Below, piece by piece: positions 14,940 through 37,342 of a stretch of DNA of 64,000 bases (its first letter is position 1; the number at the start of each line of letters is the position of its first letter). Both the position numbers and the translations under genes were made by a program. Under the pieces are notes generated by a model that did no database searches, had not been told where the DNA came from, and saw nothing but the letters and a program-made list of their open reading frames with translations. The stretch comes from Microcystis wesenbergii NRERC-220 (lineage in GTDB: Bacteria; Cyanobacteriota; Cyanobacteriia; Cyanobacteriales; Microcystaceae): the NCBI RefSeq assembly GCF_032027425.1, contig NZ_JAVSJA010000001.1, forward strand, positions 3,484,001 to 3,548,000, written 5' to 3'.

Positions 14940-14960
14940 ATAAATTTTTGAACCATGGTA

Positions 14961-17900
14961 TTAAGATAGCGATCGCTCAAGCCAATCATTATTAAATATC
15001 GTCTGATAAATCCGATTATGAACGTCCATTTTTCCATGGCGTTTTACCACTAATCCAGATAAAAATAACTCAGGTAAATAGGGATTGTTATCAATCTGTA
15101 TTGCTTCTTGATGGAGGATTTGTCGATACAAGGTTAATAACTGGGGTCGGTTTGGACTTTGAAGAAGGCGATCTTGAATGGTTTTTAAATGTTCGGGTTG
15201 ATCCTGCATCTCCCAATCTTGAATAATTTTTTCTGCTACTAAGTTGGTCAACCATTGTTCTTCTTGATTAGAGGGGATTGGTTGCTCACTATCCCGCATC
15301 AGTTGACAGAGTTTTTGAGTTAAGAAAGGTTGCCCTCCCGTCCAGCTTAAGACTTGTTTGAGCATTGTCTGAAGATTACTGACTTTTTCTGTTAACCCAT
15401 ATAATAAAGGTTGGGCTTCGTGTTCTTTAAAACTTGCTAATTCAATAGCGTTACCAATATTAAAAGGTGTTTTCTGGGGGTCAGTAATTAAAGCTGAAGG
15501 TGTGGTAGCACCAAAAAAGGCAAAAGTTAGCTCTTGAAATTGAGGTTGAATCGCTCTCTGGTTATAAAAAGAACGAATTAAAGCAAAAAAGTCAGAGGCA
15601 TCAAATTTTAACCCTAAAATGCTATCAATTTCATCAATAAATATAACAGTCGATTGTCTAGATTGCCGCTGATTAAAATCATTATTAACTAGAAGAAAAT
15701 TTTCTATAAATTGTCCTAATCGTTGTACAGGAGGCAGGTCGAATTGTTCACTCCACCAAGCTTTAAAAGTTTTCAATTCTTTGATTAATCCAAAACTGCG
15801 GAGCAGATCAACGGCTAATCCTTTATACCATTGTTCGGGGGTAATATTGTCTGTTCCTAGCCGAGTTAAGTCAATTACTGCACATCTAATTCCCTCCTTT
15901 TGTAATTGGCTCATCATCCGTACCATTAAGCTAGATTTTCCCATTTGACGTGCATTTAAAACATAGCAAAATAGACCTTGTTTGAGAGCTTTATAAAGAT
16001 TGCGATCGGCTTGTCGAACCACATAATTCGGTGCATCCATCGGTAAACTGCCCCCCACTTGATAGACAAATTTGGGAGGTTGTTCAGCACTTTTAAGTAG
16101 GTCATTTTCAAAGATAAGTTCTGCTTGGGTTGCTTTCAGTACCTCTAAAGTGTTTGTGAGTTCTTTTGTCCGTTCTTCTACTCTTTGTTCTAAGGTTTGA
16201 TAGAGTCTTGAGTTATCAATAGAGATAGCAGCTTGAGCTGCTAGAATATTTAATAGTTCAACTCTTTCTGAGGTAAATGCGCCTGTTGTTAAATTATTTT
16301 CTAAATAAACAATTCCTTTTAATTGACCTTGATTGAGTAAAGGAGTACAAAGAATGGATTTAGTTTTTTTAGCAATAATGTAAGAATCGTTGGTAAATTG
16401 ACCTGATGAAGTGGCATCATTTAAAACGATAGTTTCTTTTGTCCGAGCGACATAGTAAATAATACTGGTGGGTAAGATAGGAATTGAGTTATCATGGTCG
16501 ATAGATTCTATGGGAATCGGCTGTAAGATATTAAGCGTTTCTTGATCAATTGTTCCTTGAGCTTCAATGACCCAATTTCCTTCCTGTTCTAAAATCAGAC
16601 AACCTTTCTGAGCTCCTGCATTTTCAATGACAATTTTCATTAAATTTGTTAGGAGATTTTCCAGTTTAATTTCTCCAGAAATTGCTTGCGAGGCTTTGAG
16701 AATAGTGGTTAAATCAAGAACTGCTCCATCATTACCAGTAGTTGAAATGGTGGTACTCAGTCCTTTAGATTTGTTTTGATTGCTGATGTCTAATAAATAT
16801 TGAGGGTATTCTTCTTCTAATTGTTTAACTTTGGCCTTTGCACCCCAACGAATGTAACAATGATAAGCATTTCTGAGATATAGTTTACCGATTTCTTCTC
16901 TACCTAAAGTAAAATAAAATTCAGAGGCACGTTCATAGGCTAAAGCCTCTTCATGGATAAATTCATATTTTTTTGCTCCTTGAATGGCTTTTTCATAAAA
17001 TTCTTGAGCTTCCCAGTTTTGACCTAAGACTCTCGCTTTTTCTGCTTCAACTAGATCATATTTATGTTGAAAATTTGCTGGACAATGACTAGACCATATT
17101 GCCATCTTCTGCTGATTGTTATCTACTTGTTGTAGTAATTTTCTTTGATCATTTTGCTCTGTGTCATGATAATAAGCTAGAAAACTCAACGATGAATAGA
17201 AATTATGTTGAGGAGAAATCAAAAATGAGTTTATAGTTGGGTTTGAAATATATTGAAGTCCTCTTTCTCCATAAGTAACTGCCGACTTGTAAATCTTAAG
17301 AAGATAAAATAATAATAGTTTAGCAAAGTAAATCAGAAAAAGTAACCATTCATTGTTAGTCTGATTTAATTGGTCTAAAACTGCATTTTCTTCTTCAGTG
17401 GATTTACCGACAAATAAAGCAATTTCTTTTTTTAAGCTTTTTTGTAAATTATTGACTATATTATAAGAAATTTCTTGGTAAAAAGAGGAAAAAGTTTGCT
17501 TGAGTTTTTTAATAACTCGATTATACTTGATATATTCCTGTTCAACTTCTTCCAAATGATAACCTCCCAACAGTCTATAAATACAATAGTCTATAGCTAC
17601 ATAAGAGGCAAACTGGTTATCCCCTACATCTAAACCGATTTGAAAACTCTTTAGTAACTCGTTATCGATCTCTTTATTTCTCAGATACTCTTTCCAGTGA
17701 TATATACATCCATAATGTGTCTGTATAATAAGAGCTTGTACTTGACGAATATTATATTTATCGAGCAATTTAAGGGCTAATTTACCAAATTCATATCCTA
17801 AATTATAATTATTGATAGAGCCACATAATATCATTCCATAGTAGCTATATGTTGCTGCTGATTCAGGAGAATTTCCATGGTTGATAAATAAATCAATCTG

Positions 17901-20744
17901 TTTGAGGATTATTTTTATATGTAATAGGGGATCAGTAGTTGCCGTCGAAGACATTATTTGTTGTAAGATTTGAATGGCTTTAATCTTATAGGGATCAGTC
18001 ATAACAGGAAGGCTTTCTAAATCGTCAATTTTCCTTTTTTGTAGAATTAAATTTAAGGACTTATTAATGCTTTGATTAATATTACTTTTGCCATTTCTTC
18101 TATAAATTAAAATTCCCAGTTCTTTCAAAGTTTTTAAAGCGGTATCAATCGCCTGATCAGGTTGAAAATTTGCATAATAAAATTCAATCTTTATCTGATA
18201 TGTTTTGACTTTATCTAAGATCGATTTAGCTTGGTTAATAATGATATTTGAATAAAATAAAATTTGCTGAAATTCTGTATTAAGAAAGAGAGAATGTAAT
18301 TTTTCTTCATGAAGTTCTAAAGTCAATTGATACTGCTCACTCCAACTATTAGTTGTTAATAAACTGAGACCAGAATCTAAATACTTTAATGCTGTTTCAT
18401 AAGCAGTTGATGCTTTAGCTTTTTTAGCAGCTTTAAGATTTAATTCTGCCAAATTATCTTTTTCTTGTTGCTCAGTAATTAGCTCAGAACCTTCATTAAG
18501 TTGATTAACAATTTCAAAAATATTGTTTAATAATTCATCGTCTGTAATGTTTTTTAGCAGTAGGCGACCAATTTGTAGATGAGTCCTTTTCTTTTCTTCC
18601 TCTGGAATTAAAGAATAAACTGCTTGCTGCACTCTGTCGTGTAAAAATTTATAGGAAACACAGTTAGAATACCCACCCAAAGTTTCAGTTTCTAAGAGTT
18701 GCCTCGATAATTCTTTTGAATCCCAGAGTAGAGCTAGTTTATAGTTATTATCTAATGGTATTACTAACCCTTTATCAAGGGCTAATTGTAGTTGTTGAGC
18801 CGTAATATGTTGAGATGTATTATTTACAATAGAAAGAGCTTCTAGACTAAATTGATTACCAATACAAGCGGCTAATTTTAGAATATTTTGAGTTTTTTGA
18901 GCTATTTTTTTTATTTTATGGGTCATTAAATCAACGACATTATCGGTAATTGATAGACTTTTAATTTCGGTAATATCCCATTGCCAATAACTTTGCTTAT
19001 TATTTTCCAATTTAGTAGAGGAAGGATTAAATATTATGAAACCATCTTGGTATAAAGAATAGAGAAACTGAGCGATAAAAAAGGGGTTTCCACCTGTTTT
19101 CTGTGTCACCAAATCTGCCAAAGGCATAGTAACTTCTATCGAACAACTTAAGGTATCAGCAATTAATTGATTAATGTGCTTCATCTGCAAAGGAGCAAGA
19201 GTAATTTTCGATACAGAAACTTGTGATTGCTGAATTTTCTCTAAAGTATTCATTAAAGGATGAATCGAACTAACTTCATTATCTCGATAGGCTCCAATTA
19301 TCAGAAAATATTTAATGTCAGAATCTGATATTAATTGTTCAATTAAGTTTAAAGAGGGTAAATCTGCCCATTGTAAATCATCGATAAATATCACTAATGG
19401 ATTTTCTTTTTGAGAAAAAACATTGACAAATCGTTTAAAAAATAAATGAAATCTATTTTGACTTTCACTTCCTCCTAATAGTTCAACAGGTTGCTGTTTG
19501 CCAATAATTTTTTCAACTTCGGGAATAACATCGATAATAATTTGACTGTTCTTACCCAATGCTTCCAAAATTTTCTCTTTCCAAGCTTGCAGGATATTTT
19601 CTGGCTCACCTAGAAGTTGACGGATTAAGATTTGAAAGGCTTGAGAAATAGCTGAATAAGGAGTATCTCTTTGTAATTGATCAAATTTTCCTCTAATTAA
19701 TCGCCCTTGTTTATATGTAACTTGTTGGTAAATTTCATGAACTAAAGCTGATTTCCCAATCCCTGAATAGCCAGAAATGAGGATCATTTCAGTGGTTCCT
19801 TGGCTAACCCGATCAAAAGCCTTCAAAAGTTGAGTAACTTCCCGTTTTCGACCATATATTTTTTGAGAAATCTGAAATTTCTCAGTCAGATCCTGACCAC
19901 CTAAAGAAAACTGAGCAATCTGTCCTAACGTCCTTAATTGGTGAAGACAGATTTCTAAGTCAGCTTTAATACCCAAGGCAGTTTGATATCTTTTTTCTGG
20001 GGTTTTTGCGAGCAGTTTGTTAATGATATTAGAGAGAGTTAAGGGAATCTCTGGAATGAGTTGATGAACAGGTAAAGGTTGTTGGGCAATATGACAATGA
20101 ACTAACTCCATAGGATCGGTGGTTTCAAAGGGCAATTGATTGGTTAAAAGTTCATATAAAGTAACTCCAAGGGAATAAAAATCACTACGGTAATCTAGAC
20201 CTCGGTTCATTCTCCCTGTTTGTTCTGGGGCAATATAAGCTAAAGTCCCTTCTAATTGGTTAGGAGGACAAGCTGTGAAAAATTCTTGGGATAAACGGGT
20301 GGAAATACCAAAATCAATGATTTTCAGTTGTTCGCTTTCAGGGTTATAGACAATATTAGATGGGTTAATGTCTTTGTGAATAATATTAGCCTGATGAATA
20401 GCAGCTAACCCCTCAGTTATTTTAATAGCAATCAAGAGAAAGTTTTCCAAATTTAACTTATCTTGAGATAGTAATAACTCTAAAGATCGACCTCCAAAAT
20501 CTTCTAAAAACATTATCAAACTATTATAGTGTCGCTGTAAATCATAAGCTTTAACAACACTGTCTATGTTCAAAGAACGGATAATTTCATATTCCTGTCG
20601 ATAACGGGTAATCTCTGAAGGAGTTGGATAATTTTCTTTAAGAATTTTAAGAATAATCGGTTGAGCATTTGCCTTAAAAATGCCTCGATAGACTAGAGAA
20701 CTAGAACTTTCATAAATTTTTGTGATTAGTTGATAATCTTTCAT
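14961..20744 (-). CDS. Giant Ser/Thr kinase / AAA ATPase / GAF protein ending in an AAA-like domain
   Basis: A 1927-residue signalling protein. Residues 1-265 are a protein kinase: Lys33, HKDINPSN with Asp125 and Asn130, DFG at 144-146, APEQ at 172-175. An AAA_16 ATPase follows with Walker A GYSGIGKS (325-332) and Walker B in [11 protein letters not shown] (about 455). A long TPR-like helical region follows, then a GAF domain (about 1330-1480) and a short coiled coil ([20 protein letters not shown]). In the usual trifunctional cyanobacterial proteins a histidine kinase comes next. Here instead there is an AAA_35-type ATPase with a second P-loop NARQMGKSS (about 1600) and VIFIDEID. No H-box or HATPase motif is visible. 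The protein is probably cytoplasmic; stimulus and substrates are unknown. Confidence 0.85.
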
Positions 20745-20816
20745 AACTCACTTTTTAATAACGTTTTTACTTATTTTCTAGCATTTGAGCAGAAAAATGT
20801 CCATTAAACTCTTAGA

Positions 20817-22196
20817 TCAGACTTGAGAATAAATTTCTGTCACCGTTGTGGTTAGCACTGAGTATCCATCTTTTAGTTCTTGATCAATTATTTGCGATTT
20901 CCACATCTCACAGTCTTGACAAGCTCTTCTTTTTTCTAATTGATTAAGAATTAAATCTTGTCGTAGTTGCTGGAATAACTCTCCCGACCAAATATCTTGT
21001 AAAGTTTGTTGATTATAATCCCCTAAACTTTCAATCTCTTGATCAAAACCTAGTCTAAATAAGGTTTCTATACAGTAGTAGATTTTGCCATTGGGTAAAA
21101 CTGCCATTTCCAGAAAAGGGAATAAACAAGTCCAGCGCCCTTGCGCTTTTTGTTGATAATATTGGAGAGATTTTTCTACCCCTTGATTGTGTTTTTTTAG
21201 TCGCATATTATTTTCTTGATATTCAGCAATATTAAGGATAAAAACACTATTAACTTTTGATAACCAACGATTTAAAAATGCTTCTTCTTCCTCAAGATTA
21301 ACATTGTAATTTCTGACAAAAGAGGTTCTAATTTCGCAGTCAATACCCAACTGATCTCTAATTCTTAACAGATCAATTGTATTGGATTCGACCTGACTTA
21401 AATCTCCACCTCGAATTCTTAAATAAGTCTCTGGAGTCGCCGCGTCAAGACTAATATCAATACTGGTTAAACCCGATTTTAACAGAGCTTTAATATAAGT
21501 TTTATTCAGAAGTTGACCATTAGTAGTTAGATGAACTTTTGGAACACCTTGCTGTCGGCAAAGTTGAATAAAGTCTATAAGTTTAGGATGAAGTAATGGT
21601 TCTTCAACACTACCTATTACAATGGTAGTTGCTGCTTTTCCACAGTCTGCTGCTAGTTTTTCCATCATCTCCCAAGACATGACTTTTTTCTTTTGAAAAA
21701 AATCTGTAGTATGATTAGACTTTATCGAAGAACTATGATAGGGACACATAACACACTTAAGATTACAAGTGTTACCAACAACAACTCTGACATAAGAAGG
21801 TGCGATCGCTTTTCCATAATGACAACTAAAATAATGTAACTGCTCATCTCTATCTATTGCCGATAGTAAAACTAATGGAATAGGCTGAGGTTGAATAGTT
21901 TGGCTTGTTAGGAATGTCTCTATGTGGGGTTGTAATTGATGCCAAATATCACTTAATTCTTGGGGATATAAATACGCTAGTATAGGATAACTAGGCAAAC
22001 CCAAATCTGAAAGAATGGGTAAAGTTGGCTGAAAAACAACAACCGCATATTTATCCTTAGCCGTCATTAGCAATTTTTTGATACTATGAGGATGCAAAGG
22101 AATATTATGGGAGGGAATCTCAAGAATTCTATCTGAAAAGATAGAAGTATTTATTGTCAGATCAGATAAAAGGTTCTGAGGATCTTTAATAATCAT
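20817..22196 (-). CDS. Radical SAM / SPASM protein
   Basis: A 459-residue enzyme. The 4Fe-4S/SAM motif is CNLKCVMC in VVGNTCNLKCVMCPYHSS (about residue 148). Further barrel motifs include IGSVEEPLLHPKL, HLTTNGQLL and SIDISLDAATPETY. The C-terminus has SPASM-type cysteines (WTCLFPF ... NGKIYYCIE ... CQDCEMW) that bind auxiliary clusters. The first about 135 residues are an extra domain I do not recognise. SPASM enzymes often modify ribosomal peptides, and this gene lies 3.7 kb from a PatA-type protease and four precursor genes. A role there is plausible but not shown; it points away from them and may belong with the two genes behind it. Confidence 0.82.
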   Translation of the reverse strand: MIIKDPQNLLSDLTINTSIFSDRILEIPSHNIPLHPHSIKKLLMTAKDKYAVVVFQPTLPILSDLGLPSYPILAYLYPQELSDIWHQLQPHIETFLTSQTIQPQPIPLVLLSAIDRDEQLHYFSCHYGKAIAPSYVRVVVGNTCNLKCVMCPYHSSSIKSNHTTDFFQKKKVMSWEMMEKLAADCGKAATTIVIGSVEEPLLHPKLIDFIQLCRQQGVPKVHLTTNGQLLNKTYIKALLKSGLTSIDISLDAATPETYLRIRGGDLSQVESNTIDLLRIRDQLGIDCEIRTSFVRNYNVNLEEEEAFLNRWLSKVNSVFILNIAEYQENNMRLKKHNQGVEKSLQYYQQKAQGRWTCLFPFLEMAVLPNGKIYYCIETLFRLGFDQEIESLGDYNQQTLQDIWSGELFQQLRQDLILNQLEKRRACQDCEMWKSQIIDQELKDGYSVLTTTVTEIYSQV

Positions 22197-22280
22197 TTTT
22201 TGACCAATTTAACTATAAAATCCCCACCCTTTAGGTGAGGCGAGCAATTCTTATTTTTGTTCAATTAGTTTGCAAGGCTT

Positions 22281-22925
22281 CTAGGAACAAGTTGTCGGAA
22301 TATAAGGATTGTCGGCAAAATATTTCCCTGGTTTTCGGTTTGATATCCAGTCGGACAAATCATCTGCATTTAAAGTGGCATTTCCCCATGACGGCTCAGG
22401 TGGATAGGGAATAATCATTTTAAACAACTCTGGTGCATTGTTATCTGCATCCAATATTTGACCAATAAAGCTACTATACGTCACTTCAAATAAGTAACCC
22501 AAGCTTGGGTTTTTCTCTCCCAGTTCACATTTATCAAAGATTGGAAAAATATATTCATCGGGTGGATTACCTTGTGGAAAGAAGACTTGTTTCAGTAAAT
22601 AAGCTGGATCAGATTCATCAACGGTTTCTAGTGGTTGGGTGGGATCAGCTCCAAACAGTTTTCTGAGGTGATCAGCATTCTTTCCTTGGTCTGAGGTCGG
22701 ATGTTCAAAATAAGTCCTTAAGAGATTGGCCACTCTCTTTTGCTCGGCGTATTTCTCGTTATTTTCATCAGCCCATCGCCAAATATAAGCAATAATTTGA
22801 GAAACTTGTTTTGACTGTTGATAAAGACGCTGTAAAAAACAAATGTGTGGGCATTCCCCTTCCATTTTATTAGCGGCTTCATTAACTTTTTCTGCCTTGT
22901 AGAATAAGCTACGAGTTTCAAACAT
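22281..22925 (-). CDS. Hypothetical protein between radical SAM and amidohydrolase genes
   Basis: A 214-residue protein from ATG 22923-22925 (MFETRSLFYKAEKVNEAANK). That start has a good ribosome binding site (AAAGGAAG) 6-8 nt before it, whereas the longer frame overlaps the upstream gene. No family is recognised. The N-terminal half is helical and contains ECPHICFLQRLYQQ. The C-terminal half is rich in Pro/Asp/Asn (VFFPQGNPPDEYIFPIFDKC) and ends in a Cys-Ser. It sits 23 bp after the amidohydrolase and 84 bp before the radical SAM gene, so the three look like one operon. Confidence 0.65.
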   Translation of the reverse strand: MFETRSLFYKAEKVNEAANKMEGECPHICFLQRLYQQSKQVSQIIAYIWRWADENNEKYAEQKRVANLLRTYFEHPTSDQGKNADHLRKLFGADPTQPLETVDESDPAYLLKQVFFPQGNPPDEYIFPIFDKCELGEKNPSLGYLFEVTYSSFIGQILDADNNAPELFKMIIPYPPEPSWGNATLNADDLSDWISNRKPGKYFADNPYIPTTCS

Positions 22926-22948
22926 AAGTGTGCTTCCTTTTTGAGAAA

Positions 22949-24034
22949 TTAAATTGAACAATAAAATCGCTGAGGATTTTCCCAAACGATTTTTTTAACT
23001 ATCTCCCGAGATAAGTTGTCTTCAAGTCCTATGACTTTTTTTACCCCATCAGCCTGATGATCCATGTGAGGATAATCAGACCCGAAGATTAAGTTATCAG
23101 AACCGATAAAATCAATGACCTGAGCCAAACAAGGTTCAGAGGGTTCCCCTGCAATGTAACACTGACGGCGGAAATACTCCGATGGTAGTAATTTTACCCG
23201 ATCTTGGACTTCCCAATGTAAATTTTTATACTCTTCGTCAAGCTTCCATAACCAATAGGGAAGCCAACCACACCCTGACTCTAGAAACGCCACCCTCAGC
23301 CTCCGATGACGTTCTAAAACCCCCCCTTCAATTAAGGCTAACAGTGCCATCATTTGTTCCATCGGGTGAGAACAAGCATGAAGCGCAAACCGACTATTAA
23401 ACCGCTCTGCACCAGTGGTAGGTAAGCGGCTATGAGTGCCTTCATGAATTCCTACAGCCATGTCCAAATCCTCGCAGGCCGTCCAAAAGGGTTCATAGGC
23501 TGGATCGCTCAAAATTCTGCCTTTAACGGGGTTAGGGCGCAAAAAAACCGCCTTCCAGCCCAAGTTTGCCATGCGGTGTAGCTCTTTTACCATGTCTTCG
23601 GGATCGTGTTGATTGACTGCAGCGACTCCTTTGAGTCTGGCCGGGTCATAGCTACAAAATTCTTCATATAACCATGTATTGTAAGCACGGACAAAAGCCC
23701 CCATCACTTCAGCAGGTAGGCTATCAATGGCAAATAACCACAGTCCGTAATTAGGATAAATAAAAGCCACATCTATGCCCATTTGTGTCATAGATTGAAC
23801 ATGGGACTCTGGGTTATAGCGATTGAGATAAGCATGGGGATGAGCTTGCATCATCTGCTTATTCCCTTCTGCTTGGACTTGTGGGGAGATTTTTTGACTA
23901 ATCGGTTCTCCTTTGATTTTCATGTCAGCAGAAGGAGCAAATTCCCTAAATTTAGGTTCTAGGTATTGGCCCCACATTGCGGGGGGTTCAATGACATGGG
24001 AATCAGCATCAATAATTTTGTACCCGTTGAGCAT
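22949..24034 (-). CDS. Amidohydrolase family 2 (ACMSD-like) metal-dependent hydrolase
   Basis: A 361-residue TIM-barrel enzyme. It opens with IIDADSHVIEP, the family variant of the HxH motif. Later metal or catalytic residues appear in VGIHEGTHS, ALHACSHPMEQ and IFGSDYPHMDH. The family (amidohydrolase_2) includes decarboxylases and hydrolases of aromatic or lactone substrates, so the reaction cannot be fixed. It is first in a likely operon with the unknown 214-residue protein and the radical SAM gene. Confidence 0.85.
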   Translation of the reverse strand: MLNGYKIIDADSHVIEPPAMWGQYLEPKFREFAPSADMKIKGEPISQKISPQVQAEGNKQMMQAHPHAYLNRYNPESHVQSMTQMGIDVAFIYPNYGLWLFAIDSLPAEVMGAFVRAYNTWLYEEFCSYDPARLKGVAAVNQHDPEDMVKELHRMANLGWKAVFLRPNPVKGRILSDPAYEPFWTACEDLDMAVGIHEGTHSRLPTTGAERFNSRFALHACSHPMEQMMALLALIEGGVLERHRRLRVAFLESGCGWLPYWLWKLDEEYKNLHWEVQDRVKLLPSEYFRRQCYIAGEPSEPCLAQVIDFIGSDNLIFGSDYPHMDHQADGVKKVIGLEDNLSREIVKKIVWENPQRFYCSI

Positions 24035-25599: not shown

Positions 25600-25888
25600 T
25601 TTTAGTCGCCCGATTAATTCATTAGTTCTACTTTCAGGGATGAGGGAGTCATACCATAAAGTGACCCTTTAAATCTAATACAAATCTAATATAAATCTAA
25701 TATAAAAGTTAATATTCTGCTCAAAAAAAACTATTAGAAAAGTATTAATTTTAGAGATTGCCATTACCCAAAATAAAACTTATTCTGGTATCAAAGGTGA
25801 TTAAACAAATCACTTTTAATCCAAAAGACAAGATGTATTGCTTGTTCGGCAAAAACATCGAATTTAAATTTCATAAGGCAAATCTCTG
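25600..25888 (+). promoter_or_regulatory. Upstream region of the PatA-type protease, duplicated at 33.5 kb
   Basis: This leader contains three AAATCTAATA direct repeats (about 25672-25705), a run AGAAAAGTATTAATTTTAGA and AAAGGTGATTAAACAAATCA. About 230 bp (25625-25850) recurs almost unchanged at 33500-33720, upstream of the cytolysin-domain-like gene. A shared control sequence is the simplest reading. I cannot place the transcription start. The stretch 25467-25598 holds no gene. Confidence 0.65.
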
Positions 25889-27844
25889 GTGATTATGCCC
25901 AATTTATCTGGAATAGAGTCTCTTTGGCTGAAAACTCTGGGTGATCCGCGTATATGTGTTGCCGTCTTAGATGGAGACGTGGATCAATCTCATCCCTGTT
26001 TTCATCAAGCTCGATTAACTCGGATACCGACTTTAATCCCCTCTGTCAGCAACCAAGGATTTGCCGCCCAACATGGAACTCATGTTGCCAGCATTATTTT
26101 TGGTCAACACGGTGGTTCGGTTCAAGGAATCGCTCCTCGTTGTCGTGGCTTAATCGTACCCATTTTCAGTGATGGACAAGGGGATAAACTCGCTCCCTGT
26201 TCTCAAATCGATCTAGCGCGAGCAATTACTCAAGCGGTTGAGCAAGGAGCTAACGTCATCAATATTAGCGGCGGTCAATTAACAGCTTCCCCTGAATCTG
26301 ACCAATTATTGGCTAATGCTGTGCGTTTATGCCAAGAAAGGAATGTTCTGATCGTCGCAGCGGCTGGAAACGATGGTTGTGAATGTCTGCATCTTCCGGC
26401 AGCCCTTGAATCGGTTTTAGCCGTAGGAGCTATGGATTCTCAAGGAAAACCGCTCAATTTTAGTAATTGGGGCAAAGTTTACCAAAATCAGGGAATTCTG
26501 GCACTCGGTGAAAACATCTTAGGGGCGGCTCTCAACGGCGGAACCATTCTCAGAAGTGGGACAAGTTTTGCCACTCCCATTGTGTCGGGAATTATTGCTC
26601 TTTTATTGAGTATCCAACTACAACAAGGAGAAAAACCCGATCCTCATGGCGTTCGTGAAGCCATTCTTAAAAGTGCTTTGCCTTGCCATCAAGATCACCC
26701 TATTGATAGCCGCCGCTGTCTGGCCGGAAGACTTAATATTTCTGGCGCTTACACCCTAATTACCCAAGGAGGAATTCAACCCATGTCCAATCAAACCCAA
26801 GAACAACCCATGATGCAAACCAGTGAGGTTAATCCTACCTCTCAAGAGTTAAACAATCCTATCAATGAGATCGCCGCGTTTCAATCGACTGAAAGCCTTA
26901 ATTCTACTTCACCCTTCGCTGTTCTGCCCTCAGCCTTAGAAACAGAGGGATCACAAGCGAAAACCGCCCCTATTGTGTCCATTAATCCTTCTAATCTTAA
27001 TTCCATGTCAGTTACCCCCAACAATGAAGTGAATTCTTCTATTACCCCCTCTGCTTGTGCCTGTAGTGGCAATGGTAATGGTGCGCCCCAAATTGTTTAC
27101 GCAATTGGTCAATTAGGCACAGATTTCGGCACAGAAGCACGGCGAGATTCTTTTACTCAAGCCATGCCTCCTGATATGAGTTTGTTACGGTATCTTAATG
27201 AAAATCCCTATGAGGCGCAATCCCTGATTTGGACACTGAGTTTGGATGCAACGCCTATTTACGCCATTGTGCCAGTGGGTGCTTATGCTAGTGTGACATT
27301 TGATCGACTCCGTGCCTATTTAGAAGATGAAAGTATTGAACGAATCTCAGTGCCAGGGGTGATTAGCGGTAGTGTTCGCTTAATGTCCGGTCAAGTTGTC
27401 CCTGTGATTATTCCTGAAGTACGGGGGATGTATAGCTGGTCGGTTCCCGCTTTAGTGCGATCGGTAATGCCTCGAATGGCTGGTAGTGATGTGACAGAAG
27501 ACGGTTTACGCTCTCAAATTGAAGACTATTTGAATCGGATTTATTATGATTATCGGAATTTAGGGACAACCCCTCAAGAACGAGCCTTAAATTTCTCAGC
27601 CACTAACGCTTTTCAGGCTTCTGTGGCCATCGCAAGTGCAGCAGGTAGTCAACGGGTTCTGGATTCTATTTCCGTGGAAAAAAGCCCGATTTGTCGCCCT
27701 GATTCCGATTGCTACGACGTAAAATTAAGCTTCTTTGATCCCGAAAATAACCAGCGTTCTAATCGAGTTTTTCGTTTCACCATTGATGTGAGCGATGTCA
27801 TTCCCGTCACTATCGGTCAAGTCCGTTCTTGGTCTCAATCTTAA
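25889..27844 (+). CDS. PatA-type subtilisin protease (cyanobactin maturation family)
   Basis: A 651-residue serine protease of the PatA/PatG family, which removes leaders from cyanobactin precursors. The catalytic triad is visible: Asp28 in AVLDGDVD, His62 in QHGTHVAS, Ser226 in RSGTSFATP, with oxyanion Asn161 in AAGND. After a Ser/Thr/Asn-rich linker (about 290-385) comes a Cys-containing turn (CACSGNGNG) and the family C-terminal region starting IVYAIGQLGTDFGTEA. The length fits PatA better than PatG; no macrocyclase-specific extension is recognised. The start is GTG 25889 (AAGG 10 nt upstream), or ATG 25895. A Nif11-like gene and four precursor genes follow on the same strand. Confidence 0.88.
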   Translation: MIMPNLSGIESLWLKTLGDPRICVAVLDGDVDQSHPCFHQARLTRIPTLIPSVSNQGFAAQHGTHVASIIFGQHGGSVQGIAPRCRGLIVPIFSDGQGDKLAPCSQIDLARAITQAVEQGANVINISGGQLTASPESDQLLANAVRLCQERNVLIVAAAGNDGCECLHLPAALESVLAVGAMDSQGKPLNFSNWGKVYQNQGILALGENILGAALNGGTILRSGTSFATPIVSGIIALLLSIQLQQGEKPDPHGVREAILKSALPCHQDHPIDSRRCLAGRLNISGAYTLITQGGIQPMSNQTQEQPMMQTSEVNPTSQELNNPINEIAAFQSTESLNSTSPFAVLPSALETEGSQAKTAPIVSINPSNLNSMSVTPNNEVNSSITPSACACSGNGNGAPQIVYAIGQLGTDFGTEARRDSFTQAMPPDMSLLRYLNENPYEAQSLIWTLSLDATPIYAIVPVGAYASVTFDRLRAYLEDESIERISVPGVISGSVRLMSGQVVPVIIPEVRGMYSWSVPALVRSVMPRMAGSDVTEDGLRSQIEDYLNRIYYDYRNLGTTPQERALNFSATNAFQASVAIASAAGSQRVLDSISVEKSPICRPDSDCYDVKLSFFDPENNQRSNRVFRFTIDVSDVIPVTIGQVRSWSQS

Positions 27845-27862
27845 TACATCACAGGAGAACTT

Positions 27863-28039
27863 ATGTCTATCCAAGCCGTCAGACAGTTTAATGAAATTGC
27901 TGAGAGTGATCTAGAAATTCAAAATAGTCTAGAGGTAACAACAGATGTCCAAAGTTTAATGGCTCTTACTGTTATACTGGCTTCTGAGAGAGGCTTCAGC
28001 TTTACCTCTGAAGATCTGGCAGAATACTATTCCGAATAA
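27863..28039 (+). CDS. Nif11-like leader peptide protein, probably truncated
   Basis: A 58-residue product, MSIQAVRQFNEIAESDLEIQ ... LMALTVILASERGFSFTSED. It matches the Nif11-type helical leader found in many RiPP precursors, but has no Gly-Gly site and no core. The ribosome binding site AGGAG is 8 nt upstream and the gap to the protease stop is 18 bp. The frame continues past the TAA to 28174, so the present stop may be a nonsense mutation in a longer gene. Confidence 0.65.
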   Translation: MSIQAVRQFNEIAESDLEIQNSLEVTTDVQSLMALTVILASERGFSFTSEDLAEYYSE

Positions 28040-28174
28040 AGTAGAAGACTTCCTGATATATCTCTCAGAAATGTGATGCTTTTAACTAAAAAATATGCGT
28101 TCGAAAGCGACCCAGAAGTTTGTGATCGATTGCCTTACTTAGCTCGTCAAATCTGCCGAAAACTCAATTCTTAA
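28040..28174 (+). pseudogene. In-frame continuation of the Nif11-like gene after a TAA
   Basis: Directly after the stop at 28037-28039 the same frame encodes 44 residues, SRRLPDISLRNVMLLTKKYA then FESDPEVCDRLPYLARQICR, up to TAA 28172-28174. The stretch looks protein-like, and the next gene's ribosome binding site lies just behind it. It could instead be read from an internal ATG near 28073 as a 33-residue peptide. Confidence 0.45.
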
Positions 28175-28185
28175 AAGGAGAAATC

Positions 28186-28350
28186 ATGAATCTTCCCCTT
28201 CAAGTCCCACCCACTTCGAGAAAAGTAAGTACAGTAAGGCTTTCTGGAATCAGAGGAATCGAACTATCTAATTTAGCTTGCGATCTCTGTTGTCAATCAG
28301 GAGGTGGAATCGCTTGCGGTGCAATCAGTGGTTGTAGTTGTCCTCTGTAG
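28186..28350 (+). CDS. RiPP precursor peptide A
   Basis: 54 residues, with AAGGAG 6 nt before the ATG. The leader is MNLPLQVPPTSRKVS and includes the MNLP start shared by all four peptides. A GIELS motif (residues 24-28) is in the position of the PatA cleavage site. The C-terminal part NLACDLCCQSGGGIACGAIS followed by GCSCPL holds six Cys. A YcaO enzyme could convert such Cys to thiazolines. It lacks the AYDG/SYDD-type signal needed for PatG macrocyclisation. Confidence 0.72.
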   Translation: MNLPLQVPPTSRKVSTVRLSGIRGIELSNLACDLCCQSGGGIACGAISGCSCPL

Positions 28351-28380
28351 AAATTAACTCGCTGATTAGGAGAAAAACCC

Positions 28381-28551
28381 ATGAATCTTCCTGTTCAGTC
28401 TCAACCGATCATTCGAGGTTTCATAACTTCAAGAATTGAAGATAATGGCATCCGCTTATCTGATAATCTATGCCAGTGTCAATACGGATCTAGAATGTGT
28501 CCTGAAAACAAAGATTGCGAATGTGTAGATGGTTATCCTCGCTGTGTGTAG
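28381..28551 (+). CDS. RiPP precursor peptide B
   Basis: 56 residues, preceded by AGGAG. The leader MNLPVQSQPIIRGFITSRIE closely matches peptides C and D. A GIRLS motif (residues 23-27) occupies the cleavage-site position. The core is the most divergent and most hydrophilic: DNLCQCQYGSRMCPENKDCE followed by CVDGYPRCV, with six Cys. Four of them alternate as CQC and CEC. Confidence 0.72.
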   Translation: MNLPVQSQPIIRGFITSRIEDNGIRLSDNLCQCQYGSRMCPENKDCECVDGYPRCV

Positions 28552-28637
28552 AGTAACCTTTAATAACATTCCAGCAACTTCTCAAATGTTAAATCAGCAA
28601 AAATATCAATGACCCATGACTTATCTAATTCTCGCCT

Positions 28638-28666
28638 CACATATACCGCGAATTTCGTGATATGTG
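28638..28666 (+). promoter_or_regulatory. 29-bp imperfect palindrome between precursor genes B and C
   Basis: CACATAT...ATATGTG arms with a partly paired centre (CGCGAA/TTCGTG). There is no T-run behind it, so it is more likely an RNA processing or stabilising hairpin, or an operator, than a terminator. It sits in the 173-bp gap before precursor C. Confidence 0.5.
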
Positions 28667-28724
28667 TTAGGCAAACTCTCAAACCATTAACAAACAGTCA
28701 ACTCTCAAATAAGGAGAAAGAAAC

Positions 28725-28904
28725 ATGAATCTTCCCATTCAATCTCAACCTGTAATGCGTAATGTTTCCACTGCTGCTTTTAGTGGTGGAATGGAAGCAT
28801 CTTCTCTTCCCTGTACCATTGCTTGTGCTGGGTGCAGCGCATTATCTGGTATTGCTAAAACTCTTTGTCTTGCTGCTGCAAAAGCTGCTGGCTGTGACTG
28901 CTAA
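28725..28904 (+). CDS. RiPP precursor peptide C
   Basis: 59 residues, preceded by AAGGAG. The leader MNLPIQSQPVMRNVSTAAFS is followed by GGMEAS, which resembles the GLEAS sequence cut by PatA in patellamide precursors. The expected core is SLPCTIACAGCSALSGIAKT then LCLAAAKAAGCDC. It has six Cys and two helical Ala-rich repeats. The paralogue D differs mainly in the middle of the core. Confidence 0.78.
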   Translation: MNLPIQSQPVMRNVSTAAFSGGMEASSLPCTIACAGCSALSGIAKTLCLAAAKAAGCDC

Positions 28905-28960
28905 TTTTCTGAATTAGACCTTTTGTTAAAATACCAAAATCTAACTCAGAAATAAAGAAC

Positions 28961-28998
28961 GAGGGAAAGGTTTAAAAATCATATTTTTCCTTTCTCTC
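28961..28998 (+). terminator. Hairpin between precursor genes C and D
   Basis: GAGGGAAAGG (28961-28970) can pair with CCTTTCTCTC (28989-28998) around an A/T-rich loop. It may end or attenuate transcription between C and D. The stem is moderate and the T-run is inside the loop, so this is weak. Confidence 0.35.
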
Positions 28999-29099
28999 TT
29001 TCTCAACTGCTTACAAAAGTCAATTATATAGGCTTTGTAGTCTAGGCAATTGGCAATCATTCTGAAATCAGTCAATTTTTCATTAAGGAGAAAAAACCA

Positions 29100-29279
29100 A
29101 TGAATCTTCCCATTCAATCTCAACCTGTGATGCGTAACGTTTCTCCTGCTGCTTTTAGTGGCGGAATGGAAGCCTCTGGTGTCGGTTGTGATATTGCTTG
29201 TACTGCTTGTTCTGTTCTGCCATTTCCTGCCAGTATTGCTTGTAAATTGGCTGCAAAAGCTGCTGGTTGTGACTGCTAA
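29100..29279 (+). CDS. RiPP precursor peptide D
   Basis: 59 residues, preceded by AAGGAG. The leader is MNLPIQSQPVMRNVSPAAFS, one residue different from C, again followed by GGMEAS. The core is GVGCDIACTACSVLPFPASI then ACKLAAKAAGCDC, with five Cys after the site. The last residues AAKAAGCDC are identical to peptide C. C and D are recent duplicates with variation concentrated in residues 27-50, the pattern expected of precursors under diversifying selection. Confidence 0.78.
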   Translation: MNLPIQSQPVMRNVSPAAFSGGMEASGVGCDIACTACSVLPFPASIACKLAAKAAGCDC

Positions 29280-29923: not shown

Positions 29924-31015
29924 ATGAGTAATTCTAATTTCTTAATTTTATCCTGTGACGGGGGTGGTATTCGGGGATTAATCACCGCCATGATTCTGCA
30001 AGAACTCGATAAACAAATCCCTTTTCTTGACAAAATTGATCTGTTTACAGGAACATCAACAGGGGGAATTATTGCTTTAGGATTAGCCAGTGGTGTTCCG
30101 ATTGCTGATGTGGTTAATATTTATAAAAACAACAGGAATTGTTCTCAAATATTTACCCCTTATCAACCCCCTAATTCAGATGCTTTTTTAGATCGTTTTC
30201 TGGAAGAACTGGCTAAGAGCAATGAATTGAAAGACACCATTTTTGCAAAGATTATAGAAAATCTAGAACAACTATTGTATGTCAAATATGACAACAATGG
30301 ATTAAAATCGGTTTTGGAGAACAGTTTAACCCAGTTTAACCGACCCTTATCGACCCTAGAATCTAAAGTTTTAGTAACCACATTTCAACTGTATAATGAA
30401 GCCGACACAAATAATCCTTCATGGAGACCCATAATCCTTGATAATTTACCCAACAGTGCCAGCCAGGATACACTAATGATAGATGCTGCGCTTTGTACCA
30501 GTGCCGCACCGGTGTATTTTCCCCCTTATAAGCATCCTACTTATGGACTTTGTATTGATGGTGGTGTATTTGCTAACAACCCTAGCACATTAGCCTTAGC
30601 TAGAGTTCTAGGTTCGGGAATTTTAAAGGACAGAAATCTTGCTATTGGAGACATTAAAATACTATCAGTTGGGACGGGGCAAACTCACAATCGGATGAGA
30701 CCAGAGTATCAACCCGATGGACTGTTAAGATATGGACCGACAACATGGTTTTGGCCAATAGAATTTGATGACACACCAAAGATTCCCTTACTTTCAATCA
30801 TGATGGATGGTTCATCAATTTTAGATGATTTTCAGGTAAAAATGATCTTGGGGGATCGACAATATCAGCGAATTAATGTCGATTTAACAGAAACGATTCC
30901 TCTGGATGGTTGCTCTCAAATTCCCAAGATGAAAGATTTGGTAGATGATTATATTAAATCCTCTGCGTGGACTGAGAATATCACTTGGATACAAAACTAT
31001 TTCCTTAACCTTTAA
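29924..31015 (+). CDS. Patatin-like phospholipase
   Basis: A 363-residue lipid acyl hydrolase with the full patatin signature. The oxyanion loop is SCDGGGIRG (about 9-17), the nucleophile elbow is GTSTGG (Ser about 45), and the catalytic Asp is in CIDGGVFANNPS (about 205). It resembles the CapV-type and plant-type patatins, which cleave membrane phospholipids. No CD-NTase is visible nearby, so I do not assign it to CBASS. Its ribosome binding site is AAGGAG. Position after the RiPP precursor genes suggests but does not prove a link. Confidence 0.9.
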   Translation: MSNSNFLILSCDGGGIRGLITAMILQELDKQIPFLDKIDLFTGTSTGGIIALGLASGVPIADVVNIYKNNRNCSQIFTPYQPPNSDAFLDRFLEELAKSNELKDTIFAKIIENLEQLLYVKYDNNGLKSVLENSLTQFNRPLSTLESKVLVTTFQLYNEADTNNPSWRPIILDNLPNSASQDTLMIDAALCTSAAPVYFPPYKHPTYGLCIDGGVFANNPSTLALARVLGSGILKDRNLAIGDIKILSVGTGQTHNRMRPEYQPDGLLRYGPTTWFWPIEFDDTPKIPLLSIMMDGSSILDDFQVKMILGDRQYQRINVDLTETIPLDGCSQIPKMKDLVDDYIKSSAWTENITWIQNYFLNL

Positions 31016-33243: not shown

Positions 33244-33277
33244 CTTAAAATCATCAACAATTGACCATGAACAAGGG

Positions 33278-33480
33278 TTACATCCACATGGGAAAAGGAT
33301 TTAATTCATCTTCCGTTAAAGCTTCTTTTAACCATCCCATGCTAACAGGAACATCATACAATCTTCCTGTCCCTAAACGCTTCCACATATGACGCATTCC
33401 GGGGACAATGACTTTAGCTACTCTTAAACCAATATCAGGACGAGTTTGGTCTAATACTAACATTTCCATCCCTTTTGACT
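33278..33480 (-). pseudogene. Truncated duplicate of the YcaO cyclodehydratase 3' end
   Basis: The last 63 codons of the YcaO gene at 35045 recur here with few changes (MEMLVLDQTRPDIGLRVAKV ... GWLKEALTEDELNPFPMWM). Homology stops near 33480, where a copy of the protease upstream region begins. It cannot encode a working enzyme. It marks a segmental duplication. Confidence 0.85.
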
Positions 33481-33489
33481 CAATCTCTA

Positions 33490-33741
33490 TAATTTGATTG
33501 ATTAATTCATTTGTTCTACTTAAGAGATTACGCCATTATACCATAAAGTGACCCTTTAAATCTAATATAAATCTAATATAAATCTCATATAAAAGTTAAT
33601 ATTCTGCTCAAAAAAATATATTAGAAAAGTATTAACTTTAGAGATTGCCATTACCCAAAATAAAACTTATTCTGGTATCAAAGGTGATTAAACAAATCAC
33701 TTTTAACCCAAAAAACCTGATTTTTCTGGAAGAAACAAATT
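33490..33741 (+). promoter_or_regulatory. Duplicated copy of the PatA-type protease upstream region
   Basis: About 230 bp match 25625-25850 closely, including CATACCATAAAGTGACCC, the triple AAATCTAATA repeats, and AAAGGTGATTAAACAAATCA. It directly precedes the gene at 33742, so that gene and the protease probably answer to the same regulation. Confidence 0.7.
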
Positions 33742-34080
33742 ATGAACACTGTGACTATGGCTGTAACCAATCAATTAAACGCACCCGTAGGTGGTTCTTT
33801 TCTTGTAAGAAATAGTGGAGGATATGTTTCTCGCTTTTCAGTCTCTTACAAATTTGAAGGCCAAGATTTTAGTAAAGATAGTGGAGAGTTTACTGCAGGT
33901 GTTAACAAATCTATCAGTATCCCTGCAGGTGCTACTGAAATTCACTTAAAAGTTGAGGAAGCTTGGTTTATTGGTTCTTGGAGTACTATTTTTACTCAAG
34001 ATTTTAATAGCCCTGTTACCAAATGTTATGAGATATCTGGAACAACACTTAATCCTAGTTGGAAAGAAATCTCTTGCTAA
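33742..34080 (+). CDS. Small protein resembling domain 4 of cholesterol-dependent cytolysins
   Basis: A 112-residue protein with GGAAG 9 nt before the ATG. Its order of motifs follows the C-terminal domain of thiol-activated cytolysins: GGYVSRFSVSY (compare GAYVAQFYVSW), then NKSISIPAGATEIHLKVEEA (compare the IPL.G.ARNI.IKA.E stretch), a Trp-containing loop WFIGSWSTIF in place of the undecapeptide, and ISGTTLNP (100-105; compare IWGTTLYP, which holds the Thr-Leu cholesterol pair). Nothing corresponds to the pore-forming domains 1-3. It has no signal peptide. A lectin-like or membrane-binding role is inferred. Three of its last residues include Cys (ISC). Confidence 0.62.
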   Translation: MNTVTMAVTNQLNAPVGGSFLVRNSGGYVSRFSVSYKFEGQDFSKDSGEFTAGVNKSISIPAGATEIHLKVEEAWFIGSWSTIFTQDFNSPVTKCYEISGTTLNPSWKEISC

Positions 34081-34996: not shown

Positions 34997-35044
34997 AAAC
35001 TTAATTTGTAACCATTCAGTTATAATGTCCCCTATTCCAAAGCA

Positions 35045-37342
35045 TTACATCCACATGGGAAAAGGATTTAATTCATCTTCCGTTAAAGCTTCTTTTAACC
35101 ATCCCATGCTAACAGGAACATCATACAATCTTCCTGCCCCTAAACGCTTCCACATATGACGCATTCCGGGGACAATGACTTTAGCTACTCTTAAACCAAT
35201 ATCAGGACGAGTCTGATCTAATACTAACATTTCCATCCCCTTTGACTCAACAATTCGCTGACACAATTTAACATCCTCTAATAAGTCATCACTAGCTAAT
35301 TGTAAATAATCATGACTTTTTTTGGGTATTATTTTACTATCGGGAACTAAATAAGATTGATTGCTTAACCTTGCAGTTTGCCACCATTTAACCGCCAAAG
35401 GATCAGCAGAAGGATTATAAATCGTTGTCCCATCTTCCTTAAAAGATAACACATTCGGTAAGATTTGATTAACCTCCGTTAACGCCCGACTAATGGCAAT
35501 TTTCGGGTCAAAATGCGCCCCATACCCTAACAAAATGTCCTCCACTTCCCGCTCCTTTCTCGGACTAATAGCAGCAAAACAGGGAATATTCAAATCACTG
35601 GTAATATCTAACACCCATAGCTCCCGATTTAACCCCTCATAATATTGCTTTAATTGCTCAAAATATGGCTCATTAAAGCTCTCTAAATTAACGGAAGGTT
35701 TAACTAATTGATTATACCACCATAAGGCCACACAATCTCGTTCCACTAACTCCATAAATCCTTGTAAAATCGCTTCTTCTATCGTATTTCCTGCGGCGCA
35801 GCCATTAGAATCAGCCCAACAATCTAAGGGTTCAGATTGAGGATAACCATAATAACAATATACCGTCGGTAAATACTTAAAATCTTGAGCAGTTAAAGAC
35901 CATACAGGTGTCCAATCAATCATTCTAGTTTCATCAAAAGGTTCAGGGACTTTTTGAAACCATCCTTGATTCTTCGCATTCCATTCTTCTCGATGTTGAT
36001 ATTGTTTTTCACTAAAATTCATACATTTGTTAGGATGAATAGCTTTATCTCCTAACTCTTGATAATTCGCTTTTTCTCTGATTTCATTCCCTTGAAAAAC
36101 TCCCGAATAGCGCTCAATAGCTTCACAAAATCCACTTGCTTTTGCTTGACTATCTGTGCGGCCTTTTCCCGCACTTCTACCTCCAATATTTTGCCGTAAA
36201 CTGTCTAAATCATCAAAGACACTGCGAAAATGATGTTTCGCTACATAAGTATGAACTAAAGCATTCCCTTGTATCTTATTTAATTCTCGCACAATTCCCG
36301 TAATAGAACCGATAAGATGTTGATAGGTTCTTAAGGTTTCTTCAGGAGAACAAAAACGATGTCCCCCATCACTGGTAAAAGCCTTTTTACGATGTCCCAA
36401 AACCACAGGTAAAGGTGTTTTATTTAGAGAATATCCACAACTAGGACAGTTCGGACGTTTAACTAAAATATGCTCTTGAAATTGTAAATTTAAAGTATCA
36501 TAAGTCATCATTGTTCCTTCTAAACGTTGATTTTTACCTTGAATAATCCACTTAAAAACCTCCATAGCCGTCAGATTTAAAACCGTCTGTATTGTCGCTG
36601 AAGAAAACCCTAAAGGGGAAATTAAAGAAATCTTATTTTCTCTCTGTCTAATGATAAATTCCTCCACGGGACGATTATCTCGTAACCGTTGAGCCAAACA
36701 ATGCCAACAACCAGTTTTATCGGGATCAAATAAGGGACCAATCCATGCTAGGTTTCCCAGGGGATTAACTAATAACCAAGGCTTTTGCAAGACTAAAGCT
36801 TGTTGATTAATACTCTCTAAATCAGGATGAAGATAATTATCGGTTAAAATAATGGTTAAATCCCCTTCATCTGCGACTTGAACTTGCAATGAATTTAAAA
36901 TATTGATCAAATCTTGCTGGGGAATTGAGCCTAGGCTTTTAACCGTAACCTTCAGAGATTGTAATCGTTCAAAAGCTTGGGCTTGAGAAACCTGAAGATG
37001 ATGGCATAAAATTGCTAGATTAGACGGCAATAATTCTTTTTTTTCTAGTAAAAACCCTCGTTTATATAACTGAAAAATCGCTTTTTGAATTGCCAGACTA
37101 TAATTAATAATCACTGCGAAGGAATTAGCATTATTGGGATTGATTTCTTGATTTTGTAAAAATTCTAACTGAAGAATATCAATAATTTCATCAAGATTAC
37201 GTTGACCATCGATTAATCTTACTAAACGATAATAAAGCGGCTCTTGAAAACAGATAGATTCTCGCTCAGATAGAAAAAATACCGTATTTGGTTCTAAGGT
37301 TTCAATTGAGTAGGCAGGATTCCAATCAAGCTGGTTGAACAC
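35045..37342 (-). CDS. Fused E1-like / YcaO cyclodehydratase (TOMM biosynthesis)
   Basis: A 765-residue enzyme of the TruD/PatD type, which turns Cys or Ser/Thr into azolines using ATP. The N-terminal about 320 residues are a leader-binding and ThiF/E1-like part with two zinc-type pairs, GCWHCL and NCPSCG. The YcaO part begins near 345. ATP-site motifs are KASGFCEAIERYSG and GCAAGNTIEEAILQGFMELVE followed by RDCVALWW. The C-terminus is NPFPMWM, not a canonical PxPxP. It is 9 kb from the protease and four Cys-rich precursors, which it could modify. A copy of its last 63 codons lies at 33278. No separate dehydrogenase is seen, so products may stay as azolines. Confidence 0.88.
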   Translation of the reverse strand: MFNQLDWNPAYSIETLEPNTVFFLSERESICFQEPLYYRLVRLIDGQRNLDEIIDILQLEFLQNQEINPNNANSFAVIINYSLAIQKAIFQLYKRGFLLEKKELLPSNLAILCHHLQVSQAQAFERLQSLKVTVKSLGSIPQQDLINILNSLQVQVADEGDLTIILTDNYLHPDLESINQQALVLQKPWLLVNPLGNLAWIGPLFDPDKTGCWHCLAQRLRDNRPVEEFIIRQRENKISLISPLGFSSATIQTVLNLTAMEVFKWIIQGKNQRLEGTMMTYDTLNLQFQEHILVKRPNCPSCGYSLNKTPLPVVLGHRKKAFTSDGGHRFCSPEETLRTYQHLIGSITGIVRELNKIQGNALVHTYVAKHHFRSVFDDLDSLRQNIGGRSAGKGRTDSQAKASGFCEAIERYSGVFQGNEIREKANYQELGDKAIHPNKCMNFSEKQYQHREEWNAKNQGWFQKVPEPFDETRMIDWTPVWSLTAQDFKYLPTVYCYYGYPQSEPLDCWADSNGCAAGNTIEEAILQGFMELVERDCVALWWYNQLVKPSVNLESFNEPYFEQLKQYYEGLNRELWVLDITSDLNIPCFAAISPRKEREVEDILLGYGAHFDPKIAISRALTEVNQILPNVLSFKEDGTTIYNPSADPLAVKWWQTARLSNQSYLVPDSKIIPKKSHDYLQLASDDLLEDVKLCQRIVESKGMEMLVLDQTRPDIGLRVAKVIVPGMRHMWKRLGAGRLYDVPVSMGWLKEALTEDELNPFPMWM

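Follow-up and report, generated by a model that had tools for sequence, protein, structure and literature searches.

The window analysed here, a stretch of 64,000 nucleotides (nt) from Microcystis wesenbergii NRERC-220 (positions 3484001-3548000 of contig 1 of a 4.68 Mb genome with two contigs), harbours a cluster in which the gene of a PatA-type subtilisin protease is followed by four small genes for cysteine-rich precursor peptides, all on the plus strand. Positions without further specification refer to the window; the loci and genomes used for comparison carry L and G numbers. The protease gene (25889..27844) has GTG as its listed start, with an in-frame ATG 6 bases downstream, and encodes 651 amino acids (aa). 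Its product scores 745.5 bits with the PatA/PatG family TIGR03895 (cut-off 421), contains the subtilase domain PF00082 together with PF18047 and PF18065 (PatG_D and PatG_C), and ends in the PatA/PatG domain of unknown function. The nearest solved chain by sequence is the N-terminal cyanobactin protease 4h6w (E 3e-114), with the PatG protease domain 4h6x in second place (E 1.9e-56). All catalytic motifs are present, namely Asp in VLDG, His in HGTH and Ser in GTSFATP. Asp and His are separated by 32 residues, as compared to 69 or 82 in the six PatG-type proteins in which this distance was measurable, and thus the macrocyclisation insert is absent. No PatG-type protease/macrocyclase was found near the cluster or anywhere in the window. 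A PatG hidden in the window was considered and rejected, since the only PatG-type gene of this genome lies elsewhere (C1:1934768-1937332; L020 10472-13342). In the product of that gene a protein kinase domain is inserted between the subtilase and PatG_D; its nearest relative, L084 in G237, is without the kinase, and the regular expression for the leader detected no open reading frame (ORF) with the motif near the fusion gene in L020.

The four precursor genes are located at 28186..28350 (precursor 1, 54 aa), 28381..28551 (precursor 2, 56 aa), 28725..28904 (precursor 3, 59 aa) and 29100..29279 (precursor 4, 59 aa). Each is preceded by an AGGAGA ribosome-binding site ending 4-8 bases before the ATG, and each encodes six cysteines. 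The peptides share the motif LPxQxxPxxR and 14 invariant alignment columns. Precursors 3 and 4 are tandem copies, as revealed by the direct repeat D3 (84% identity over 106 nt). The leader motif connects these peptides to cyanobactins: LPxQxxPVxR is common to the family and to cyanobactin precursors, the classical precursors of G255 and G334 reading RPxQxAPVQR, and those in L035 and L070, which carry recognition sequence I (RSI), reading MPQxxQP(V/I)xR.

Downstream of the leader, a candidate cleavage site resembling recognition sequence II (RSII) can be read from each sequence. A passage of PMC10885120 gives G(L/V)E(A/P)S as the consensus behind which PatA-like enzymes cleave. The sites of precursors 3 (28788..28802) and 4 (29163..29177), both GMEAS, fit the strict family pattern given below; precursors 1 (28255..28269, GIELS, proposed cut after S) and 2 (28447..28461, GIRLS) offer looser matches. 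Cleavage at these positions would leave predicted cores of 26, 29, 33 and 33 aa for precursors 1 to 4. In the same order, their calculated monoisotopic masses are 2408.935, 3321.253, 3050.383 and 3122.383 Da with three disulfides, 2414.982, 3327.300, 3056.430 and 3128.429 Da in the reduced form, and 2306.919, 3219.237, 2948.366 and 3020.366 Da if every cysteine were an azoline. The strict pattern G[VLIM]x[PA]S occurs in 25 of 54 family precursors, as compared to 1.5% of shuffled tails. RSI is absent from the four window precursors, and among the loci examined it was found in precursors of L035 and L070 only. Recognition sequence III (RSIII) is also missing from the four, since they have no AYDG/AGDDAE-like tail and their cores run to the stop codon. 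Thus, the preliminary description of this DNA, which had proposed an intact PatA-type protease with no PatG-like enzyme in sight, four small genes with a common MNLP leader and Cys-rich tails, a leader related to that of cyanobactins, and long linear cores extending to the C-terminus without a macrocyclisation signal, is borne out in these respects.

The same genome contains a second protease of this kind, 64% identical over the alignment, and its cluster (L019) comprises one MLLP and three MKLP precursors, one of which (L019 12041-12214) resembles precursor 1. Since homologous genes lie beside the second protease, the precursors are more than a chance occurrence. Both clusters also include a Nif11-like ORF. 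In the window it is located between the protease and precursor 1 (27863..28039, plus strand; PF07862 31.5 bits, cut-off 23.8) and encodes 58 aa without cysteines, 59% identical to its homologue of 105 aa in the second cluster. We considered whether it is a true precursor and rejected this, because it has no core and no cysteines and was found, among the loci compared, solely in the two clusters of this genome.

Precursor 3 has a homologue in another genome (L043 833-1012 in G237), and a plasmid search with precursor 3 gave no match. Pairwise comparison of precursors 3, 4 and the G237 homologue gave silent/replacement changes of 5/2, 2/2 and 7/2 for the leader and of 5/14, 7/9 and 5/16 for the core. 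None of the six cysteines is lost; the counts are small. The first value in each series is that of precursor 3 versus precursor 4.

A scan of named genomes with both proteases gave 20 further loci from Nostocales, Okeania, Xenococcus, Chamaesiphon, Gloeocapsopsis and others; these were found via peptide patterns from two proteases of the group, so the sampling favours that group. The leader expression matched small ORFs in 18 of the 20 loci, with no such ORF in L039 and L040. In L035 the matches are of the RSI or PatB type only, leaving 17 of 20 loci with precursors. In a second approach, an even draw of 386 cyanobacterial genomes was searched with profiles (at most the best 16 candidates per genome, and for TIGR03895 the best three). 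The precursor profile A5 matched 11 genomes, two of which (G255 and G334) were not counted because the sequences matched there are classical precursors; two of these end in AGDDAE-like tails, and one ends differently. This leaves nine genomes carrying the family (G000, G237, G005, G030, G091, G157, G213, G305 and G326); matches in G057 and G321, without the leader motif by regular expression, are likewise not counted among them. TIGR03895 matches at E 1e-60 occur in 34 genomes, to which all nine belong (Fisher p 1.1e-10), and in seven of the nine no second place at this threshold was present among the three best candidates. The preliminary description would be refuted if the leader family occurred mainly without PatA/YcaO genes, and measured against this condition the result is divided: PatA accompanies the family in all nine genomes, YcaO in five of the nine.

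A tree of 50 proteins contains a branch, supported by 100/100, which separates 23 proteases of this group from 27 cyanobactin A and G proteases. Of the latter, 17 were labelled A and 10 G (L061, labelled G, falls among A), and the tree was rooted by midpoint only; the L031 and L040 proteases were too short to be included. L035, which has RSI-type precursors, YcaO and PatG in its cluster, has a protease that groups with the cyanobactin A proteases. L039 belongs to the 23, and the leader expression detected no precursor there. By sequence, the proteases of this group thus form a clade of their own, apart from those of cyanobactin clusters. Two observations concern its members. In L031 (9935-11911) two separate ORFs, with 386 and 267 aa, make up the split protease, and a gene for a CAP-domain protein (PF00188 in L028, homologues elsewhere) is present within a few kb of the protease in L025, L027, L028, L032, L041, L102 and L103.

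These data also bear on the question whether the precursors might be mere leftovers, decayed or out of use, of what was once a cyanobactin cluster, and give no mature peptide. The family is found in only 2 of 12 genomes of the genus, which makes it an accessory trait there; the genome holds the PatG-kinase fusion without a recognisable precursor, and the Nif11-like ORF is shorter than its homologue. All this would be in line with decay. However, two clusters with full-length proteases exist in one genome, the ribosome-binding sites are good, silent changes in the leader equal or exceed replacements, all cysteines are kept, and the protease clade is widespread and mostly of full length. We therefore regard the leftover explanation as hardly probable.

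A further property of the precursors is the number of their cysteines. From 66 distinct rows selected by the leader expression, 13 PatB-like or RSI-bearing ones were set aside; identical peptides were counted once, and some loci with G handles come from the same genomes as named loci. The remaining 53 precursors have 0 (14 precursors), 2 (4), 4 (1), 6 (23), 8 (9) or 10 (2) cysteines, and not a single odd count was found, so all 39 cysteine-bearing precursors have an even number. Clustering gave 18-24 sequence groups with cysteines, none with an odd member. Further, the nearly identical L025 and L032 precursors have cores with 8 and 10 cysteines, exactly two apart, and the homologous cores of L041 and L048 have 4 and 6. 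In our opinion such homologue pairs are the strongest single items; a change by two is predicted by disulfides and not by azolines. The core at L036 13965-14174 has the layout C...C...CC...C...C and weakly matches knottins (PDB 7rz3 with E 6e-4, made up of two weak stretches of 0.15 and 0.5 each, and 2e2s with E 0.006); its Pfam matches to Toxin_7 (0.0045), Tryp_inh (0.053) and tachystatins (about 0.5) are all below cut-off.

Based on these observations, we consider it quite probable that the cluster is a PatA-only relative of cyanobactin clusters, in which the protease releases linear peptides whose cysteines pair as disulfides, three in the case of the window peptides. Recognition of the precursors by the protease would depend on their N-terminal LPxQxxPVxR motif, and cleavage would take place behind the G[VIM]xxS site that comes next. 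The released peptides of 26, 29, 33 and 33 residues would reach to their natural C-terminus without macrocyclisation, and each freed core could then fold by disulfide pairing, six cysteines giving three disulfides. The products would be compact mini-proteins with fast-changing loops, in contrast to the leader and the cysteines, which remain constant. The sequence itself shows the genes, the common leader, the motif resembling a cut site, the distinct protease clade, the co-occurrence with PatA, the cysteine parity and the lack of PatG, RSI and RSIII in the cluster. From these we infer that the precursors are cleaved, form disulfides, are exported and have a biological role, which is probably extracellular defence or signalling.

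Several points weigh against this interpretation. The strict cut-site pattern fails in 29 of the 54 precursors, including those with GIELS and GIRLS; in these 29 the site is a looser variant or missing. The control for parity has a weakness, in that unrelated small ORFs with two or more cysteines comprise 57 even and 28 odd cases, and those with at least four comprise 272 even and 124 odd ones (105 with five and 14 with seven cysteines), the even excess in the latter set arising because the counts fall steeply from four. Since the controls are mostly even, a probability of 0.5 per group is too generous a null; with a probability of an even count near 0.7 and 18 clusters, the chance is approximately 0.002 and not 4e-6. 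Yet neither control comes near to zero odd counts. The 13 rows set aside (cysteine counts 1, 2, 3, 4 and 5) include odd ones, and a few rows are possibly damaged or misread genes (L038 13813, L051 1292). The comparison to knottins rests on the core of a single relative (L036), by sequence, and in its Pfam scan a plainly unrelated family scored 0.028, which indicates the level of noise. A dedicated oxidase or exporter did not stand out in the gene lists, although no search was aimed at either. Finally, YcaO is present in five of the nine precursor genomes (G000, G237, G030, G091 and G326).

The last point leads to the azoline question. A fused E1-YcaO cyclodehydratase of the TruD-like type (35045..37342, minus strand; TIGR03604, TIGR03882), the only full YcaO of this genome, is encoded 5.8 kb beyond the last precursor. 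It could act in trans on the cysteines before PatA removes the leader, giving linear azol(in)e peptides as proposed in the preliminary description. In G030 and G326, too, YcaO and PatA are no more than about 15 kb apart, and the leader has its N-terminal motif in common with azoline-forming cyanobactins, although the profile match is weak. On the other hand, the precursors lack RSI, which directs heterocyclisation according to a passage of PMC4663559 (the LAELSEE leader motif is described in a part of PMC4558948), even if RSI is not required of all thiazole/oxazole-modified microcins. YcaO is absent from the precursor genomes G005, G157, G213 and G305 and from the surroundings of the second cluster in the same genome, and even counts with changes of two cysteines at a time do not fit azolines.

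Moreover, the YcaO gene belongs to a separate cassette, which we treat as context and do not assign to the PatA system, and which occurs away from PatA elsewhere; in G091, YcaO lies on a different contig from PatA and precursors. Relatives of YcaO are accompanied by an amidohydrolase (60-80% identical) in L097, L099, L106, L107, L108, L109 and L110, not in L111, and by a 1930-aa kinase in L097, L099, L107, L108, L110 and L111. The stretches L106, L108, L109, L110 and L111 revealed no PatA, and L107 has a PatA fragment. The L106-L111 genomes have a PatA/PatG match elsewhere, so they show the cassette away from PatA and not genomes without PatA. For these reasons an azoline product is very unlikely and the corresponding part of the preliminary description is not supported. 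In G000, G030 and G326 YcaO and PatA are true neighbours, which leaves a link between them a slight probability.

In its own right, this conserved but variable cassette covers 13602-24034 and 35045-37342 of the window and is found also in L097, L099, L106, L107, L108, L110 and L111. It consists of the fused YcaO, usually the amidohydrolase, the 1930-aa kinase/ATPase/GAF protein, AAA_35 proteins and proteins of 190-400 aa. Three proteins of this size were scanned and had no Pfam match over the cut-off. Many proteins of this size class end in Ser/Thr/Cys after a Pro-rich stretch, and 11 of 13 listed ones have tails rich in these residues (e.g. PYIPLSSS); in the window, the ORF 22281-22985 ends with NPYIPTTCS. 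These tails look like YcaO substrates.

Two further explanations would assign the cysteines a different purpose. Metallothionein-like peptides would hold zinc or copper in the cell. CxC, CC and CxxC pairs are frequent in the cores, and the cytosol is reducing, which counts in favour of metal binding. Strictly even numbers and changes of two cysteines at a time are however unexpected of metal sites, the cores differ greatly between loci, cysteine-free ones share the same leader, and one core weakly matches knottins, all of which makes this explanation very improbable. Alternatively, lanthionine or sactionine thioethers could be installed by LanM or radical SAM enzymes. Indeed, a radical SAM/SPASM gene is located at 20817-22196 in the window, and a LanM-type domain (PF13575) is encoded in three of the nine precursor genomes, in G005 (contig C127 11551-12729) approximately 6.5 kb from PatA. 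PF13575 is absent from the window's genome, which led us to reject the lanthionine route here, and also from five others of the nine; homologues of the radical SAM gene lie beside the YcaO relatives in L106 and L111 and not at the other PatA loci compared, and parity is not expected of thioethers. Thus, a thioether product is very unlikely.

When disulfide-paired linear peptides are compared to known systems, piricyclamides and anacyclamides (AcyE/PirE type) are among the closest. They share a PatA-type protease, an LPxQxAPVxR-like leader, independence of a heterocyclase, hypervariable cores and several precursor genes. Some piricyclamides of Microcystis, whose machinery is without heterocyclase, have disulfides proven by mass spectrometry according to a passage of PMC3428304, and thus provide a precedent for the disulfides proposed here. 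TIGR04446 touches a precursor in L034 (E 0.0019, below cut-off). Piricyclamides and anacyclamides differ in depending on macrocyclisation by PatG and a C-terminal AGDDAE-like tail, both missing in the window cluster, where the cores are also longer (26-33 aa); whole precursors of relatives have up to ten cysteines. With patellamide and microcyclamide precursors (TIGR03678) the cluster has in common the PatA-type protease and its cut-site motif, and residues 3-15 of three of the four peptides match the profile at E 0.14-0.25, below cut-off. It differs by the lack of RSI, RSIII, PatG and a short macrocyclic core.

PatB/AcyB/McaB proteins (TIGR04220) are similar at their N-terminus, since the PatB protein of L065 (E 2.6e-35) opens with the same LPKQxxPVKR motif; they differ in keeping a conserved GANYNDP body. 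PatB-like genes with CGC tails were found in L033 and L034 (E 0.0057 and 5e-7, below cut-off). The function of PatB is given as unknown, and the protein as non-essential, in a passage of PMC4663559. We note that the LPKQxxPVKR start is a property of several PatB-like proteins of cyanobactin clusters, namely L065 492-707 (the TIGR04220 match), L077 1172-1414, L078 3400-3606 and L035 13625-13825. Concerning Nif11-derived precursors (TIGR03798/PF07862), the cluster has its Nif11-domain ORF, but this is coreless, and no Nif11 match was found in the four precursors. The likeness to knottins is confined to the L036 core, stays below curated cut-offs and may be convergent; it implies no claim for the four window cores.

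The same leader is followed by cysteine-poor cores, helical-looking by eye, in L033, L034, L037, L038, L042, G157 and G213. These relatives include Okeania and Xenococcus, and L034 and L037 each hold one cysteine-rich core as well. A methyltransferase gene (PF04072 in L034; homologues 58-64% identical) is present close by in L033, L034, L042, L104 and L105, and its product may methylate the carboxyl end. It is tempting to speculate that all these loci represent an undescribed, widespread class in which linear cores of hypervariable sequence are freed from a shared leader by a dedicated PatA clade. Depending on the lineage, the cores would be disulfide-rich mini-proteins with three to five bridges or cysteine-poor, helix-like peptides, some of the latter beside a putative carboxyl methyltransferase. 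LPxQxxPVxR, found in these precursors, in classical cyanobactins and in PatB, would be a docking signal for the C-terminal domain common to PatA and PatG. We give this wider proposal an even chance. That the C-terminal PatA domain reads the leader motif is a guess on our part, and for the PatG version a study (PMC4259220) reports no binding to those substrates that are the most plausible.

In the open-licence papers searched we found no description of PatA-only clusters with such precursors, and no described product of this kind, in agreement with the preliminary description. According to a passage of the review PMC4663559, no active cyanobactin cluster is without either its A or its G protease, and searches built on this rule could miss the clusters considered here. 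Their identification would be important for several reasons. The PatA step is set apart from the rest of the cyanobactin pathway, and a natural PatA-only system would show that leader motif and cut site suffice for maturation. With it, freshwater and marine cyanobacteria would offer a library of gene-encoded peptides rich in cysteine. Further, two questions would become accessible to experiment, namely the purpose of the conserved stretch at the N-terminus of the leader and the task of the PatA/PatG domain of unknown function.

Beyond the precursors, a patatin-like phospholipase is encoded at 29924..31015 on the plus strand (PF01734, 83 bits). Homologues with 29-84% identity are present near the PatA-clade loci L023, L033, L038, L042, L100, L104 and L105, so by its distribution the gene is an accessory near several relatives of the cluster. 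The stretch from PatA via the precursors to the patatin gene is bracketed by two copies of the direct repeat D2, each 202 nt long and on the plus strand. The left copy (25633..25834) lies directly upstream of PatA and is 92% identical to its partner, the right copy (33520..33721). Since this stretch is situated between the amidohydrolase (22949-24034) and YcaO, the arrangement of the repeats makes it look as if it had been inserted. Just beyond the right D2 copy, a 112-aa ORF (33742-34080) matches PF17440, a thiol-activated cytolysin beta-sandwich domain, with 24.2 bits, barely over the cut-off of 23. Last but not least, the 3' end of the YcaO gene is duplicated (211 nt, 97% identity, at 33273-33483 and 35040-35250), leaving a gene fragment at 33278-33469.

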